A stretch of 64,000 nucleotides of DNA from Oligoflexales bacterium (GTDB lineage Bacteria; Bdellovibrionota_B; Oligoflexia; Oligoflexales; JALZUQ01): NCBI GenBank assembly GCA_023301465.1, contig JALZUQ010000010.1:1-64000 (forward strand). Direction: 5' to 3'. Position numbers and translations under genes: made by a program. Each line of letters begins with the position of its first letter. Position 1 is the stretch's first letter. The notes beneath the pieces were generated by a model. That model had not been told where the DNA came from and made no database searches. It saw nothing but the letters and a program-made list of their open reading frames with translations. Positions 7,411 through 15,881 of this stretch are shown here, in pieces.

Positions 7411-8331
7411 TTATCTGAGATGAAATAAACTCAGACCGATCCCTAACAAGTTTTTCCTGTCTTTTTTATTCAAGTAAGCTTTAAGAAAAAAGTCTAATGC
7501 AGGGATCTCTTCTACTTTTTTTGAACCAATATAAGCATGCCGAACATATAACCTGCCGTCTCTTTTTATCAAAACACCTTGATGCCTAACAGCCATTTTA
7601 GTGGCAATAGCCGGTATATTTTTTTGGGGAACCAAAATTGAATTAAAAAAAGACACTTTTGGAATATTTTTTAAAAAAAGATCATTAAAATAGTAACCGT
7701 TTTTTGTTTGCTGAAAGATAAAACTATAAGGCACCCAATGAACATCTACTACTTCTGGCTTAAATTTTTTTGCTAATTTAAACAATTCTGTAAGGTCTCC
7801 GCACCCTTTTCCGCTGCAATTAATATCCTTATCAGACATGTTTAAAATCCATTTTTTCTTGTCTGAAACCATCTTTATACTTTTTAAAGCAGAACCTGCA
7901 ACACGCCTTGAAATATTAGTAAACAACCCTTTTTGATAGCCATTATTCATCCAATCTAATATTGGAAAATGGTTGCGTTCTGAAAATGAAATAATATTTC
8001 TTTTATATCTGATTTTTTTTATGGTTTTTACAAAATCATCTGAAGCTGAACTAGACGCCAATGCTAAAACTGTTTCGACAAATGTTGTACAATCAAACAA
8101 ATCAAATCGAAAAAGTGGGTCTCTATCAAATCGTGATTTTTCTCCTTCTCCTAAAGGACCTAATTGATAGCTATTCCCCAATAAAGCACTCGAAAAAAAC
8201 TTTATTCTCTCTTCATGTTTTTTGATTTTTTTTGCATCATACAATAACTTTGAGGCACTTACCTCACTACCACCATAGACTGATCCTAATTGAAACATTG
8301 TAAGCAGAACGAATACAAAGATTTTTTTCAC
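7411..8331 (-). CDS. DUF1460-type (N-acetylmuramoyl-L-alanine amidase-like) secreted protein
   Basis: Signal peptide; DLFDCTTFVETVLALA Cys motif; GVLIKRDGRLYVRHA. Confidence 0.7.
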   Translation of the reverse strand: MKKIFVFVLLTMFQLGSVYGGSEVSASKLLYDAKKIKKHEERIKFFSSALLGNSYQLGPLGEGEKSRFDRDPLFRFDLFDCTTFVETVLALASSSASDDFVKTIKKIRYKRNIISFSERNHFPILDWMNNGYQKGLFTNISRRVAGSALKSIKMVSDKKKWILNMSDKDINCSGKGCGDLTELFKLAKKFKPEVVDVHWVPYSFIFQQTKNGYYFNDLFLKNIPKVSFFNSILVPQKNIPAIATKMAVRHQGVLIKRDGRLYVRHAYIGSKKVEEIPALDFFLKAYLNKKDRKNLLGIGLSLFHLR

Positions 8332-8354: not shown

Positions 8355-8852
8355 TTAAGAATTAAGGTCAACATCTATGACATCGTCATCAATCTTAAGT
8401 TTTTGACGCCAGTCGTTTAAGGCATTCAATGCTGCTGACTTGTCACTTCCATAGCTTCCAAGCTCATAAATCAATCTTGCTTTTTTATTATAAAACACAA
8501 TGTAAACAGCATACTTAGTCTTATCTTCATGGGTTTCTTCTTCTAATTGAAGCCTAAGAAAATCGTCATTAGGACCTTCAAACTTAAAGTGTTGACCCAA
8601 ATGACTTCGATAAATCTTAAGTGTTTTAGTATCTGCATTATACACTAGCCTATCAGTACCTCTGATTAAATCTATAAAAGACCAAATCACCAAAGCCACA
8701 ATAATGATTAATCCAGCCTTAGCTGCAAGAGGTATTCTCAATGCAAACAACAAAATAATCGTTGCCGTTGTGATGACTGTAGAAATTGAAATATCTCTAC
8801 TTGTTCTTTGAATGTTTAAAGTATCTTTTTGAAACGACACAACATTACTCAT
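8355..8852 (-). CDS. Hypothetical membrane protein
   Basis: 165 aa ORF with two hydrophobic segments. Confidence 0.55.
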   Translation of the reverse strand: MSNVVSFQKDTLNIQRTSRDISISTVITTATIILLFALRIPLAAKAGLIIIVALVIWSFIDLIRGTDRLVYNADTKTLKIYRSHLGQHFKFEGPNDDFLRLQLEEETHEDKTKYAVYIVFYNKKARLIYELGSYGSDKSAALNALNDWRQKLKIDDDVIDVDLNS

Positions 8853-9627
8853 AACTTGTTCCTTTTATTTGCGTAGGAATCAACGAACTTGAACCGACCC
8901 GAAATAGTCGAGTATCAATGAAACTATCTTTTTTTGGAGATTTACAAACCTCGTAAAAATTCCATGCATGATTTAAATCTTTAATCCCACCTGCCACCTT
9001 AATACCAATATCTGGCAAAAGCTCTGCCCTCATCACCTGCACATCTTCGATGACAGCACCTATCTTCTCAAACTCTAACTTTGGTGCAAAACCTGTGCTT
9101 GTCTTGGCCATACGCCATTGTTCTCTTAAATTTAGATCGCTAAACGCTTGATTTAAAACTTCACATGCGGCCTTTATTTGATCCATTGACAGGTAACAGT
9201 TTTCAAAGATAACTTTAAGGGTCTTTGATCCTACTGCGTCTGAAATACTCATGATGTGATCTTTTACTTTTTGAATTTTTCCATCTAACAACCCCCTGTA
9301 ATCCATAACCATATCAAACTCATCTACTAGAGGTTTAAGTTCATGAATCTGCTGGAGGGAAGAACGAACCCCAGAGGCTTCAACGGATGGGAATCCTGTC
9401 ACCACTGATACTTTTAGTTGATTACCATTGTGAGAGCTTTCAAGTATTGACCTTACCTCATCAACCATATGACCATGAATACAAACACTGCAAGCATGAC
9501 TTGCCTGAGCTTCATGCACTAGTTTTTTTATATTTTCTTTTTGGGATTCTAGACTGACGCCATGATCATTTGTTTTAAGGTAAGTGTGATCAACGGCACC
9601 ATAAAGACTCGTTAATGGTTGAGTCAT
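8845..9627 (-). CDS. deoC: Deoxyribose-phosphate aldolase
   Basis: VSVVTGFPSVEASG, KTSTGFAP and IGIKVAGGIKD motifs. Confidence 0.88.
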   Translation of the reverse strand: MTQPLTSLYGAVDHTYLKTNDHGVSLESQKENIKKLVHEAQASHACSVCIHGHMVDEVRSILESSHNGNQLKVSVVTGFPSVEASGVRSSLQQIHELKPLVDEFDMVMDYRGLLDGKIQKVKDHIMSISDAVGSKTLKVIFENCYLSMDQIKAACEVLNQAFSDLNLREQWRMAKTSTGFAPKLEFEKIGAVIEDVQVMRAELLPDIGIKVAGGIKDLNHAWNFYEVCKSPKKDSFIDTRLFRVGSSSLIPTQIKGTSYE

Positions 9628-10865
9628 TTTTTGCTCTCACGAATAAGAGCCCCTAAAACACGTTTTCTAGCAGCCTTGACTTGAGATTGTTTGTAACGGT
9701 AGTGAGAAGCTTTTCCGGATATAGCTTCTTGGTATGCATTATTATGGAGTATCTGAATTTCAAAAGGAAAAAAAACTTTTAGTTCACGATAATCTGTTAA
9801 CTCAGGCCAATCCAGTACGTAATCTATGATTTTTTGAGTCTCAGCCTGACTTTGATCACTAGCTTTGTCTACTTGGTTTAACTTAAAATTTTCTAGCTTC
9901 TCTATCCATTCTAAACGTTTATTTTGTGACGTAACAAGTTGTCTACATGTTAGTTGAATGGACTTATAACTATTGGATGAGTGAGGATTAACAGACCTCA
10001 TGCCTTCATCAAGTGTTAATGCAATGTTAGAAAGCTTTTTGTGAAAATCATCACTTGATAGATCGTTTTGTCTGGATTCTTCTAAAAGAGACTCTAAACT
10101 CATCTTAAATCTCTCTATATCCATGACGCTATTGCGGCTTCTATTTGGATTACAGTTTGGGAAAGAGATCATGTGATATTGACTTAGTTTTTTTAAGACC
10201 TGAGCCATATCTTCAATAGTTTTTGTGACAATTCTAAAACCAAGTAAATCATAGATGGTTTCTGCTACGTTTGCTTTTTTATGTAGGAGTTTTAACACCA
10301 TAGAAGCAAGTGATTTTGGAGGTTTCCATTGAAATTCTTCGATTTCAATAAAATCAGATTTTTCACCAAAACACAAAGAGCCGCTTTTATTTGTGAATAT
10401 GTATTTTGACACCCTACTTTGCATCTGCTCTAAAGCTTTATTTTGATCCATAAAACGGGTCACACCCACCACATGAGAAAAAGTATGAATCACCCTGATA
10501 ATGGCACAAGCCCACTTTTGAGTTTGATTGTTTTCTTTTGAAAAATCTGAAGCCCATATCAATAGCTGACGCATGTCTTTACAATCAAGTACATGCTGAG
10601 GAGGTATCAAACCTTTTTGCCATTCTTTAGGGATTAAATGCTGCTGAATAAAATGAATCGACTGAATATAAACACCACCAAGAAACTTTAAGTCTTTTTT
10701 GTCTTGGATATCAAATCCATAAGCTAGCATAAACTCTTCGGCGTCACTGGTGTTGTGAATACTAAGTTGATCAAGGTCGATGGCACTTTTACCAGAAAGC
10801 ATGACTTCCATGGTTTGCCAAGGCAGCGTCCAAGAGTCAGCGTAATGTTGTGAGTGATCTTTCAT
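9624..10865 (-). CDS. Divergent RelA/SpoT synthetase-like protein
   Basis: YDLLGFRIVTKTIEDMAQVL; NSYKSIQLT; PFEIQILHNNAYQEAISGKASHYRYKQ resembles the RelA pattern VEVQIRT..H..AE.G.AAHW.YK. Confidence 0.6.
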   Translation of the reverse strand: MKDHSQHYADSWTLPWQTMEVMLSGKSAIDLDQLSIHNTSDAEEFMLAYGFDIQDKKDLKFLGGVYIQSIHFIQQHLIPKEWQKGLIPPQHVLDCKDMRQLLIWASDFSKENNQTQKWACAIIRVIHTFSHVVGVTRFMDQNKALEQMQSRVSKYIFTNKSGSLCFGEKSDFIEIEEFQWKPPKSLASMVLKLLHKKANVAETIYDLLGFRIVTKTIEDMAQVLKKLSQYHMISFPNCNPNRSRNSVMDIERFKMSLESLLEESRQNDLSSDDFHKKLSNIALTLDEGMRSVNPHSSNSYKSIQLTCRQLVTSQNKRLEWIEKLENFKLNQVDKASDQSQAETQKIIDYVLDWPELTDYRELKVFFPFEIQILHNNAYQEAISGKASHYRYKQSQVKAARKRVLGALIRESKK

Positions 10866-11010: not shown

Positions 11011-11376
11011 TTATTTTCTTGAACCGCCTTCAACGCCTTTTTCAAGTGATGACGCTGATTGTTTCATTTCTATGATCCACTGAGTTCTCAGCTTGATAAA
11101 ATCGTAACCACGTTCAGGCTTTGCAGCACTAATAAAATTAGATAATGGCACTTTTGTTGAACCTGTTAAGTCAACACCATCTAAATCAATCTTCGTGCTA
11201 CCCTTCTTTTTTACTCTGTATCTTTTGGTCGTTACACGCTTATTTCCTTTGCGAACTTTTTTCTTCTTTTTCTTTTGTGCATATGCAGACCCATAATAGT
11301 CAGATCCCAAACTGGGTGAAATCATCATCAAACTAGCTACGATGAGAATGGTTTTTATTATCTTTATAAATTGCAT
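11011..11376 (-). CDS. Small basic hypothetical secreted protein
   Basis: 121 aa ORF with signal peptide, Lys/Arg-rich segment, followed by a terminator. Confidence 0.6.
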   Translation of the reverse strand: MQFIKIIKTILIVASLMMISPSLGSDYYGSAYAQKKKKKKVRKGNKRVTTKRYRVKKKGSTKIDLDGVDLTGSTKVPLSNFISAAKPERGYDFIKLRTQWIIEMKQSASSLEKGVEGGSRK

Positions 11377-12685: not shown

Positions 12686-13282
12686 ATTCTTAACGTTCAA
12701 AAACTTTCTTATGATTACGGTATAGGAACACTTTACACACTATCTGATCAGTTTAAGGCTGGAGACATCATCAAAGTAGAAGGGCCAAACGGTAGCGGCA
12801 AATCCACCTTTCTAAAACAACTAGCAGGCATTCTTCCTGCTGACAAATCATCCATACAAATCAATCAAGGTGAGTTCAAAAGTGCTTTCGCATACCTCGC
12901 TGCTGACCACAACAACTTACACCTAAACTTAAACGCCATTTCTAACCTTCAATTATGGCAAAAAATATTTGGGCATAGCTCTATTGATTTAAATGCACTG
13001 CTTGCGAGCTGGGGCCTTCCAAATACAAAAGAAATCCACTCTTTAACAGTAAGACAATTTTCTACTGGAATGAAAAGACGCTTATCGCTTGCAATCACGG
13101 AAGTCATTAGACCTTACTGCCTTCTTTTGGATGAACCATCTTTTGGCTTAGACACGAAAGGTAATACCATTCTTGAGGAATATATCTTAAAAGCAAGAGA
13201 GCGAAAACAAATCCTTTTTGTTGTGAACCATCAGAGCATGAGTATCAACTTTGATAAAACTTTGGAGTTTGGTGAATCATGA
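12686..13282 (+). CDS. ccmA: Heme exporter ATP-binding protein CcmA
   Basis: Manual frame: ILNVQKLSYDYG...VEGPNGSGKSTFLKQLAGIL...VRQFSTGMKRRLSLA...CLLLDEPSFGLD; continuous with the 13070 ORF; probable ATT start after AAAGAGGT. Confidence 0.8.
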   Translation: MLNVQKLSYDYGIGTLYTLSDQFKAGDIIKVEGPNGSGKSTFLKQLAGILPADKSSIQINQGEFKSAFAYLAADHNNLHLNLNAISNLQLWQKIFGHSSIDLNALLASWGLPNTKEIHSLTVRQFSTGMKRRLSLAITEVIRPYCLLLDEPSFGLDTKGNTILEEYILKARERKQILFVVNHQSMSINFDKTLEFGES

Positions 13283-13986
13283 AATCTTATCTTATTTTTC
13301 TAAGGTTTTACCTTCAATCAAGCAGTAAAAAACTAGATGGCTTTATTGGCCCAATGTTATTTTCCATCACAACTATTGTGTTATTCCAATTTGCATACGG
13401 ACATATTCAAGACATTACCAGACAAGAAATGGCGATTGGTCAGCTTCATCTTTCTGTGCTTCTTGGTATGTTTATTTTCTTTCTGAGAAGCTTTGCAGTG
13501 GATACAGAAGATGGCTTTATCACTCACATTCGTGTAACCGACGCCCCAAAGACAAGCTGGTTTCTAGCAAAACTCACTCAAGTGTTTATTTGGCTGATGT
13601 TACTGGCTACATTGAATATCGTTGCCGTTGGAATTCTTTGGCACTCTTCCATCTGGGATCTTGTGAACATCCAGACAGCCACCATCACTATTGTTAATAT
13701 TTTAGGCATTAGTGCATTAGGCCTTTTGGTCATCTTTGCTGTCCATCTGTCCTCTATTATGGAAATCATTTTTTCTCTTATCTTCTTCCCTCTTTCTACT
13801 CCGCTCTTTCTTTGCTCTATCCAGTGTTGGAGCGAAATCGCAAAATCTGGAGAAACCACCGAATTATCTACGAATTGGGCTATGGCAAGTATCTCAATCA
13901 GTGTTATATTACTCACCATAAGTATTTTACTCATTGGAGAGCTCTTACAACCGCAAAGAGAAACCCAAAAAGTAGAAAACAAATAA
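13279..13986 (+). CDS. ccmB: Heme exporter membrane protein CcmB
   Basis: Six-TM topology; 4-nt overlap with ccmA and upstream of ccmC. Confidence 0.8.
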   Translation: MKSYLIFLRFYLQSSSKKLDGFIGPMLFSITTIVLFQFAYGHIQDITRQEMAIGQLHLSVLLGMFIFFLRSFAVDTEDGFITHIRVTDAPKTSWFLAKLTQVFIWLMLLATLNIVAVGILWHSSIWDLVNIQTATITIVNILGISALGLLVIFAVHLSSIMEIIFSLIFFPLSTPLFLCSIQCWSEIAKSGETTELSTNWAMASISISVILLTISILLIGELLQPQRETQKVENK

Positions 13987-14008
13987 AAATATAGAGAAGA
14001 GAAAATTT

Positions 14009-14707
14009 ATGGAAAAAAAACTCAGTAACTCATTTCTCATGTTCAGTTTTGTCATACTTCACGTATTATTTGGGCTGTGGATTTACACTTTGTTCTACGC
14101 CCCTTACGAAGCAAATATGGGAGAAGTTTACAGGGTTCTTTATGTTCATGTTCCAGTAGCATTTGCTGCTTTTTTATCTGCATTTGTTTTGGCTTTTTAT
14201 TCCATCAAATCTTTTCGCTCTGCGAATAAATCTTTTGTCATCTACCAAAAAGCTTGTGCAGACGTTGGACTATTGATGACTGTTCTTACCCTTGCCACCG
14301 GAAGTATCTGGGCAAAGCCAACTTGGGGAACATGGTGGGAATGGGACCCTCGCCTTACAACAACGCTATTACTAGCCATCTTATTTTTGGCGTTTATCAT
14401 GTTTTATCACTCCGTAGAAGAGTGGCAAGTAAAGCGTAAAGTCTGTTCTGTCATTGGTATTTTAATTGCTATCAATGTTCCCATCGTTTACCAAAGCGTA
14501 AAGTGGTGGAGGTCGATTCACCAACCTCAAAGCCTGATGCGTGAAGGTGGTTCTAGTATTTCACCTGAAATCCGCTACCCTCTTTTGGCCTGCATTGCTG
14601 TCATGCTTATCCTCACTTATTGTACTCTTAAGGTACGCTACCTATACTTAGAACTAAAAGATCAAAATGAAATGAAAGCCCTACAATCTTTAAAAGGAGG
14701 TCGCTAG
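14009..14707 (+). CDS. ccmC: Heme exporter protein CcmC
   Basis: WGTWWEWDPRLTTTLLL tryptophan-rich motif, multi-TM. Confidence 0.92.
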   Translation: MEKKLSNSFLMFSFVILHVLFGLWIYTLFYAPYEANMGEVYRVLYVHVPVAFAAFLSAFVLAFYSIKSFRSANKSFVIYQKACADVGLLMTVLTLATGSIWAKPTWGTWWEWDPRLTTTLLLAILFLAFIMFYHSVEEWQVKRKVCSVIGILIAINVPIVYQSVKWWRSIHQPQSLMREGGSSISPEIRYPLLACIAVMLILTYCTLKVRYLYLELKDQNEMKALQSLKGGR

Positions 14708-14868
14708 TGGAACCCATACATTATGTATATATGGCTTACTTATTGGTAATCCTTTCTTGTGAGCTTTATCTTTTTTATAATGTTTACCTTTATTTTAAAG
14801 CACAAAAAATCAGTGAAATAACTCACGAGATGGACAGTCAACAAAACAATGAGGGGAGAAACTCATGA
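14707..14868 (+). CDS. ccmD: CcmD-like small membrane protein (absent from ORF track)
   Basis: GTG start overlapping the ccmC stop (TAGTG): VEPIHYVYMAYLLVILSCELYLFYNVYLYFKAQKISEITHEMDSQQNNEGRNS*; stop overlaps the ccmE ATG. Confidence 0.6.
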   Translation: MEPIHYVYMAYLLVILSCELYLFYNVYLYFKAQKISEITHEMDSQQNNEGRNS

Positions 14869-15317
14869 ACTCAAAACAACTAAAGTGGTTTATAGGTGGT
14901 GGGGTTATCTTAATTGCATTTGCAATTTTAATGACTTTGAATATGGGAGATGGACTTGTTTTCTTTTTTACTCCCTCTGAAGCCTATGCCAAAGGTGCAG
15001 CTATTGAAAACAAAACAGTTAGAGTCGCTGGCATGGTTCAAACTGGCAGCAAGAAGTGGGATAGTAAAACCTTAGATCTGAAGTTCACACTGACTGATTT
15101 TGAAGGCCACGATTACCATGTTTCTCACTATGGCTCTCCTCCAGATCTATTCAAAGAAAATCAAGGTGTCATCGTTGAAGGCCTTGTAAACAACTCAAAA
15201 AAAATCATACAAAGCAAAAAACTCATGGTAAAACACTCTGAAGAATACAGAGTCCCCAAAGATGAAAGCTTCGATAAAGAAATGCTCCAAAGATCCATTT
15301 TCAAAGGTGAAAACTAA
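14865..15317 (+). CDS. ccmE: Cytochrome c maturation protein CcmE
   Basis: TM anchor then OB-fold KTVRVAGMVQTGS...LTDFEG...V.YGSPPDLFKENQGVIVEG. Confidence 0.85.
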   Translation: MNSKQLKWFIGGGVILIAFAILMTLNMGDGLVFFFTPSEAYAKGAAIENKTVRVAGMVQTGSKKWDSKTLDLKFTLTDFEGHDYHVSHYGSPPDLFKENQGVIVEGLVNNSKKIIQSKKLMVKHSEEYRVPKDESFDKEMLQRSIFKGEN

Positions 15318-15320
15318 ACC

Positions 15321-15881
15321 GTGAGCCAGCAAAAAAATCATTTCTTTGCAGTGTTTACGATAGGCATTATCGGAGTTTGTGTCATTGCATTACTCTATAT
15401 CGCACTAGGTCAAAACCCAAAAAAAGTAGCTTCCGCACTTCTTGGCAAACAAATGCCTGCTTTTGAGCTATCCACTTTACAAAAACCTTCTATCGTTGAA
15501 TATCAACCGGGTGAAACTTTTTCTTCCGCAGAATTTAAAGGCCGCCCTCTTCTCATTAATTTTTGGGCTAGTTGGTGTGTTAGCTGCAGGCAAGAAGCAC
15601 AAGAACTTGAGAGACTTCACAGACACTTTAAAGATGATCTACTAGTAGTAGGCATTGCCATCCAAGACACCAAAGAGTTAGCCATGAGTTTTGCTCGTCG
15701 TTATGGAAAGACATACCTACTTGGCCTTGATAATAGTGGGGACGCATCCATTGAGTATGGAGTGATTGGTGTCCCAGAGAGTTTTCTTGTGGATAAAACC
15801 GGAAAAATTGTCCATAAAATTTCAGGGCCTATTACATTAAACGAAATTACCGAACTCGTGCGTGAGCTAAAACTACTTTAG
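15321..15881 (+). CDS. TlpA/CcmG-like thiol-disulfide oxidoreductase
   Basis: WASWCVSCRQE CxxC motif; GVIGVPESFLVDKTGKI; TM anchor. Confidence 0.82.
   Translation: MSQQKNHFFAVFTIGIIGVCVIALLYIALGQNPKKVASALLGKQMPAFELSTLQKPSIVEYQPGETFSSAEFKGRPLLINFWASWCVSCRQEAQELERLHRHFKDDLLVVGIAIQDTKELAMSFARRYGKTYLLGLDNSGDASIEYGVIGVPESFLVDKTGKIVHKISGPITLNEITELVRELKLL

Follow-up and report, generated by a model that had tools for sequence, protein, structure and literature searches.

A divergent RelA/SpoT synthetase-like protein of an Oligoflexales bacterium belongs to a functionally unnamed family with a likely altered substrate site

Background

What is a protein that carries the synthetase motifs of RelA/SpoT homologues (RSH) and departs from them at several hallmark residues: an alarmone synthetase, an enzyme with changed chemistry, an inactive protein or a toxin? 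The question is raised by one gene in a stretch of 64,000 nucleotides from an Oligoflexales bacterium (contig JALZUQ010000010.1, positions 1 to 64,000), hereafter the window, which is the whole stretch of DNA that was analyzed. A preliminary description, made from the sequence alone, had reported RSH synthetase-like motifs in this gene and an overlap with deoC. It had left the choice between an alarmone-synthetase-derived enzyme with altered chemistry and an inactive or toxin-like small alarmone synthetase (SAS).

Results and discussion

The window protein belongs to a curated family

The RSH-like open reading frame (ORF) spans positions 9624-10865 on the minus strand, starts with ATG and encodes 413 amino acids. 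The encoded protein matches the NCBIfam models TIGR04562 (308.7 bits, E 5e-92, model positions 1-355 of 356) and TIGR04552 (299 bits, E 5e-89, model positions 3-351 of 352), and in both cases it far exceeds the curated cut-offs of 140 and 125 bits, respectively. Both models are labelled only 'TIGR04552 family protein', with no function assigned, and our literature search on the TIGR04552 family found no biochemistry and no dedicated myxobacterial or Bdellovibrio study. On sequence criteria, the protein is a further member of this curated, functionally unnamed family and not an orphan. We detected no family-level differences from the TIGR04552/TIGR04562 proteins, and the window member departs from the conserved residues at three sites (H374, L186 and Q68).

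The RSH motifs lie where they had been described, namely YDLLGFRIVT at residues 205-214, SYKSIQLT at residues 299-306 and PFEIQIL...YKQ at residues 367-393, and the matches to TIGR04562 and to the Pfam family PF04607 (RelA_SpoT; 35.4 bits, E 1.4e-8, cut-off 27) place them beyond chance. PF04607 is also matched by all 67 homologues that we aligned, at E <= 0.1. It is the only family returned by the Pfam search, and the absence of HD, TGS and ACT domains reported earlier is thereby upheld. The sole HD_4 domain of the genome resides within a separate long Rel, which scores 150 bits against PF04607 as compared to about 35 bits for the window protein.

The predicted fold is that of RSH synthetases

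To model the protein, AlphaFold was given the alignment of the 67 homologues, which are approximately 27-42% identical to the window protein. The model has a mean pLDDT of 90.4 and a pTM of 0.85. When it was compared with the PDB using Foldseek, the best matches were all RSH synthetases. In particular, the top match was SAS1/RelQ with pppGpp (probability 1.00, E 7.8e-4, TM-score by target 0.58), followed by SAS2/RelP and then by long Rel, with CapRel (7ztb) as a weak match. The E-values are modest (7.8e-4 at best), and two helical insertions together with an N-terminal domain raise the rmsd over the full length to about 13 A, a poor value; the fold assignment therefore rests on the list of matches and on the agreeing sequence profiles. 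A PDB search with the single sequence gave chance matches only, and RSH matches emerged with the profile (RelSeq, E 6e-4; YwaC, E 2.4e-3). In the profile search and in profile-profile alignment, D206 and E369 are in register with the catalytic Asp and Glu of RelSeq, of Mycobacterium tuberculosis Rel and of the long Rel of the same genome; the profile-profile comparison with long Rel aligned the last motif block alone (probability 75). A viral fold library returned RelA/SpoT matches, all of them weak.

AlphaFold and Foldseek thus put RSH synthetases first, as expected of a nucleotidyltransferase fold, with the superposition of the motifs judged through alignments. Family models, Pfam, AlphaFold and Foldseek agree on the proposed derivation from an alarmone synthetase, and the protein is a diverged representative of the RSH synthetase fold that has neither hydrolase nor regulatory domains.

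Three helical elements are added to this fold. Residues 1-155 (10401-10865, minus strand) form an all-helical N-terminal domain in the AlphaFold model. This domain is specific to the family, with conserved residues G25, S27, D30, Y49-G50, E68, P89, W118, H127-T128 and H131; the conserved E68 is Gln in the window protein. It matches no Pfam family and, when modelled alone (pLDDT 84.6), gives no PDB match with an E-value under 2.2 and none to Rel. We considered whether it could be a degenerate HD hydrolase, which is argued against by the lack of any Pfam, solved-fold or Rel match.

The other two elements are insertions identified from the alignment and the AlphaFold model. One, residues 246-292 (9990-10130, minus strand), connects the RxRN segment to the acceptor strand, at a site where K and Y are separated by 11 residues in the long Rel of the same genome; the other, residues 315-358 (9792-9923, minus strand), is variable in the family. 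Since the insertions (about 45 and about 50 residues) adjoin the strands bearing Tyr300/Gln304 and Glu369, the acceptor side looks rebuilt.

Catalytic residues are conserved and the substrate site is likely altered

In RelSeq and RelP, R241 and R269 stack on either side of the donor adenine and Y308 stacks the guanine, while the bound alarmone is contacted by R241, K243, H244, S247, K251, K297, Y299, H312 and Q325; D264 and E323 of RelSeq are essential (PMC7983052, PMC13299517), and both D264G and E323Q abolish its synthesis activity (PMC13299517). We located the counterparts of these residues by alignment, all on the minus strand. K243, S247 and K251, with the roles assigned to them in RelSeq (PMC7983052, PMC13299517), correspond to K184, S188 and K192 in KSLASMVLK (residues 184-192; 10290-10316). 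The catalytic D264 and the adenine-stacking R269 correspond to D206 and R211 in DLLGFR (residues 206-211; 10233-10250), and E323 and Q325 to E369 and Q371 in EIQIL...YK (residues 369-392; 9690-9761). RSRN (residues 242-245; 10131-10142), mapped by eye, probably corresponds to the RFKD segment of RSH enzymes, and YKSIQLT (residues 300-306; 9948-9968) is the counterpart of RSH YQSLHTT (PMC12226406).

K184, S188, K192, D206, E369 and Q371 are each identical in 67 of 67 homologues. R211 is Arg in 64 and Lys in 3, and Tyr300, the counterpart of Y308, is Tyr in 62 and Phe in 5. Overall, 21 of the 413 positions are invariant and they include six of the eight active-site counterparts (hypergeometric P 2e-7). 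Because the catalytic counterparts are invariant in the 67 homologues, the window protein is probably a working enzyme and its family appears to be under selection as one, which runs against the earlier suggestion of an inactive protein.

The residues around the substrates have diverged. The position of R241 (residue 182) is Pro in the window protein and Arg in none of the 67 homologues, and the residue just before it (181) is Lys or Arg in all 67, with K181 in the window protein. The donor-adenine Arg pair, a feature common to the characterized members that lies outside the Pfam definition, is hence half kept. H312, the guanosine-associated His of YQSLHTT, is replaced by Gln304 in 67 of 67. 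In place of the Arg that follows Q325-Ile, most homologues have Met, Val or Leu; the position after that is occupied by Asp in 66 of 67, the sole exception being His374 of the window protein (9744-9746, minus strand). The alteration of the IRT and LHT residues noticed in the preliminary description is real and extends to the whole family. Taken as a set, these replacements make it likely that the substrate site is altered.

The syn3 motif is SIQ in the window protein and [SA]xQ in the family, with the guanosine-type SxH absent from the 67 homologues. SxH is typical of guanosine enzymes and GxN of the adenosine enzyme Apk2, and an exchange of syn motifs failed to switch specificity (PMC12226406), so that a reading of the motif cannot name the substrate. 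In the wider family, a Myxococcota subset (loci L155 and L156) and one further record (L179) have His at position 304; Gln is therefore a feature of a branch and no proof of a different base. The two Myxococcota loci represent a separate subfamily, in which the insertions are shorter and syn1, syn2 and syn3 read GGRK, DKLRFR and VxH, respectively; their acceptor motif is closer to standard RSH.

Compared to the known systems, the window protein has in common with SAS1/RelQ (5ded) and SAS2/RelP (6ex0) the synthetase fold, the catalytic Asp and Glu, the Lys/Ser/Lys phosphate-binding set and the lack of HD, TGS and ACT domains. However, it is twice as long, with the N-terminal helical domain and the two insertions, lacks the Arg241 counterpart and has Gln for His312. 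The synthetase motifs are in register with those of long Rel/RelA/SpoT (RelSeq, 1vj7, and the copy in the same genome), whose hydrolase, TGS and ACT domains it lacks and with which it coexists. The SAS subgroup bdRel (Atkinson 2011) was named for the beta/delta-proteobacteria (PMC3153485).

The family is widespread and largely vertically inherited

Family members were found in 44 of 56 genomes of relatives within Bdellovibrionota, in 38 of 46 genomes of a phylum sample and in 119 of 190 Myxococcota genomes, as compared to none of 14 control genomes searched with TIGR04562. The named relatives come from Oligoflexales, Oligoflexus, Pseudobacteriovorax, Bdellovibrionales, Bacteriovoracaceae, Halobacteriovorax and Myxococcales, with a few outliers. 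There is usually one copy per genome, although two copies occur in some cases; in L105 and L111 the two copies are near each other in one locus. In a tree of the 67 sequences, the window protein groups with Oligoflexales-type sequences (a clade of 20 rows, support 100/98) on a long branch. Within Bdellovibrionota, inheritance of the family is largely vertical. The genome of the window encodes one long Rel (G000:C35) in addition to the TIGR04552-family protein, and long Rel is present in all 13 carriers that we examined (this genome and 12 of 12 others).

The family has no match in PADLOC, among plasmids or among viral contigs. The single 'phage' match, Microcystis phage MaAM05 (L179; MW495066.1, 117534-130622), has the family gene flanked by gatD and secF/secD, with glyS and mtgA nearby. 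This stretch looks like bacterial chromosome and the record may be misassigned.

The overlap with deoC is specific to the window

The stop codon of the RSH-like ORF (TGA) shares the sequence ATGA with the start codon of the ORF at 8845-9627 on the same strand, which confirms the 4-nt overlap. The downstream protein is a divergent DeoC (deoxyribose-phosphate aldolase): it scores 112 bits against TIGR00126, just below the cut-off of 117, lies just above the Pfam DeoC cut-off, and retrieves from the PDB 26 sequences that are all aldolases, nearly all of them named deoxyribose-phosphate aldolase. To see whether this arrangement recurs, we compared 85 non-redundant loci with usable neighbourhoods, including the window. 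deoC adjoins the family gene in none of the 84 other loci. Most probably, the overlap arose by chance in this one operon.

Other neighbours do recur. In 22 Bdellovibrionales-type loci, the family gene is followed by a gene for a Rossmann-like FAD-type protein and then by one for an Fe-S protein, usually with overlapping ends (for instance L094, L098, L119 and L133). The Rossmann/FAD-type N-terminus of the former was read by eye, this protein having no Pfam match, and the latter has 4Fe-4S and BFD-type 2Fe-2S domains. In 30 loci from Oligoflexales and related bacteria, a divergent gene upstream encodes a weakly thioredoxin-like family; neighbours were clustered by single linkage, and most of the thioredoxin scores lie close to or under the Pfam cut-offs. 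We regard the redox link of the family as a lead and not as a finding. No antitoxin-like or small partner gene recurs next door in the 85 loci.

Within the window, a small, secreted-looking, Lys-rich protein is encoded 145 nt upstream on the same strand (11011-11376, minus strand), and 18 loci contain a relative, as a rule at a distance of two genes upstream. The same gene run ends with an AmiA-like (PF07313) N-acetylmuramoyl-L-alanine amidase-like protein (7411-8331, minus strand). A cytochrome c maturation-like run lies at 13279-15881 (plus strand), with CcmB-, CcmC- and CcmE-like proteins recognized by eye and the last protein thioredoxin-like by Pfam.

Possible functions

We consider it fairly probable that the window protein, as read from the residues conserved in the TIGR04552/TIGR04562 family, is an active ATP-dependent pyrophosphotransferase with a changed, non-standard acceptor site. 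In such an enzyme, Mg2+ would be bound through D206 and E369, the ATP triphosphate would be held through K184, S188 and K192, and pyrophosphate would be transferred to an acceptor hydroxyl, as in RSH synthetases. The acceptor pocket may be changed enough that the acceptor is not GTP/GDP. The N-terminal domain would probably regulate the activity or offer a partner contact, and the role would probably be in housekeeping or stress physiology rather than that of a toxin. Several observations weigh against parts of this reading. Owing to the lost Arg241 counterpart, ATP could be bound less tightly or in another way, the window protein is changed at conserved sites (H374, L186 and Q68) and sits on a long branch, and the His at position 304 in wider-family members implies that Gln may not shift specificity. 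Moreover, there is at least one setting in which the gene is not needed (Bdellovibrio sp. NC01, PMC9888234). A more specific version, in which a pyrophosphotransferase of Bdellovibrionota and Myxococcota works beside Rel on an acceptor that is none of GTP/GDP, ATP/ADP and tRNA CCA, is speculative and on balance doubtful; its chemistry, of an undescribed kind and serving signalling or modification, might be redox-linked, given the thioredoxin-like and FAD/Fe-S neighbours in relatives.

The protein could instead have diverged in sequence only and act as a conventional small alarmone synthetase, making (p)ppGpp with ATP and GTP/GDP as substrates. The catalytic carboxylates, the K184/S188/K192 set, R211 and the base-stacking Tyr300 are all kept, the top fold matches are (p)ppGpp synthetases, and His occupies position 304 in some wider-family members. 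However, the lack of an Arg241 counterpart, the Gln at position 304, the aliphatic residue in place of the Arg after Gln325 and the acceptor-side insertions leave this a minority possibility. It is unlikely that the protein is catalytically dead and serves to sense nucleotides or as a scaffold: the loss of the conserved adenine-stacking Arg and the change of D374 to His in the window protein would fit, but six of eight active-site counterparts would hardly be invariant among sequences so dissimilar to it. More improbable still is a toxSAS-type toxin or phage-defence effector, acting through pyrophosphorylation of tRNA CCA or synthesis of (p)ppApp, as the toxin-like SAS of the preliminary description would imply. 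The fold superfamily does include the toxSAS FaRel2, CapRel and Apk1/Apk2, with CapRel among the weak structural matches. In contrast to these, the family is mostly single-copy and largely vertical, lacks an antitoxin, immunity or recurrent small partner gene as well as any PADLOC, plasmid or viral-contig relative, has its lone 'phage' match amid bacterial housekeeping genes, and differs from the GxN of Apk2 in its [SA]xQ syn3. Least credible is the functional coupling to deoC in nucleoside salvage that had been proposed from the shared strand and the 4-nt overlap, an idea largely refuted by the other 84 loci.

Physiological context

Bdellovibrionota and Myxococcota include bacterial predators and fruiting bacteria, in which starvation signalling is central. 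The family is widespread, mostly single-copy and uncharacterized in both phyla, where it occurs beside a normal Rel, and it raises the question of a possible second alarmone-like signal in these bacteria. The window gene and its deoC neighbour add little to this family-level interest.

The only physiological lead that we found for the family comes from Bdellovibrio sp. NC01, which was passaged 40 times on poor prey (PMC9888234). The TIGR04552 gene DOE51_RS08710 was mutated in one of six lines by a small indel, listed as the deletion of one A, which was among 20 high-frequency mutations (PMC9888234). This deletion shows that the gene can be lost there and does not imply an adaptive benefit of the loss; better starvation survival was seen in all six evolved lines (PMC9888234).
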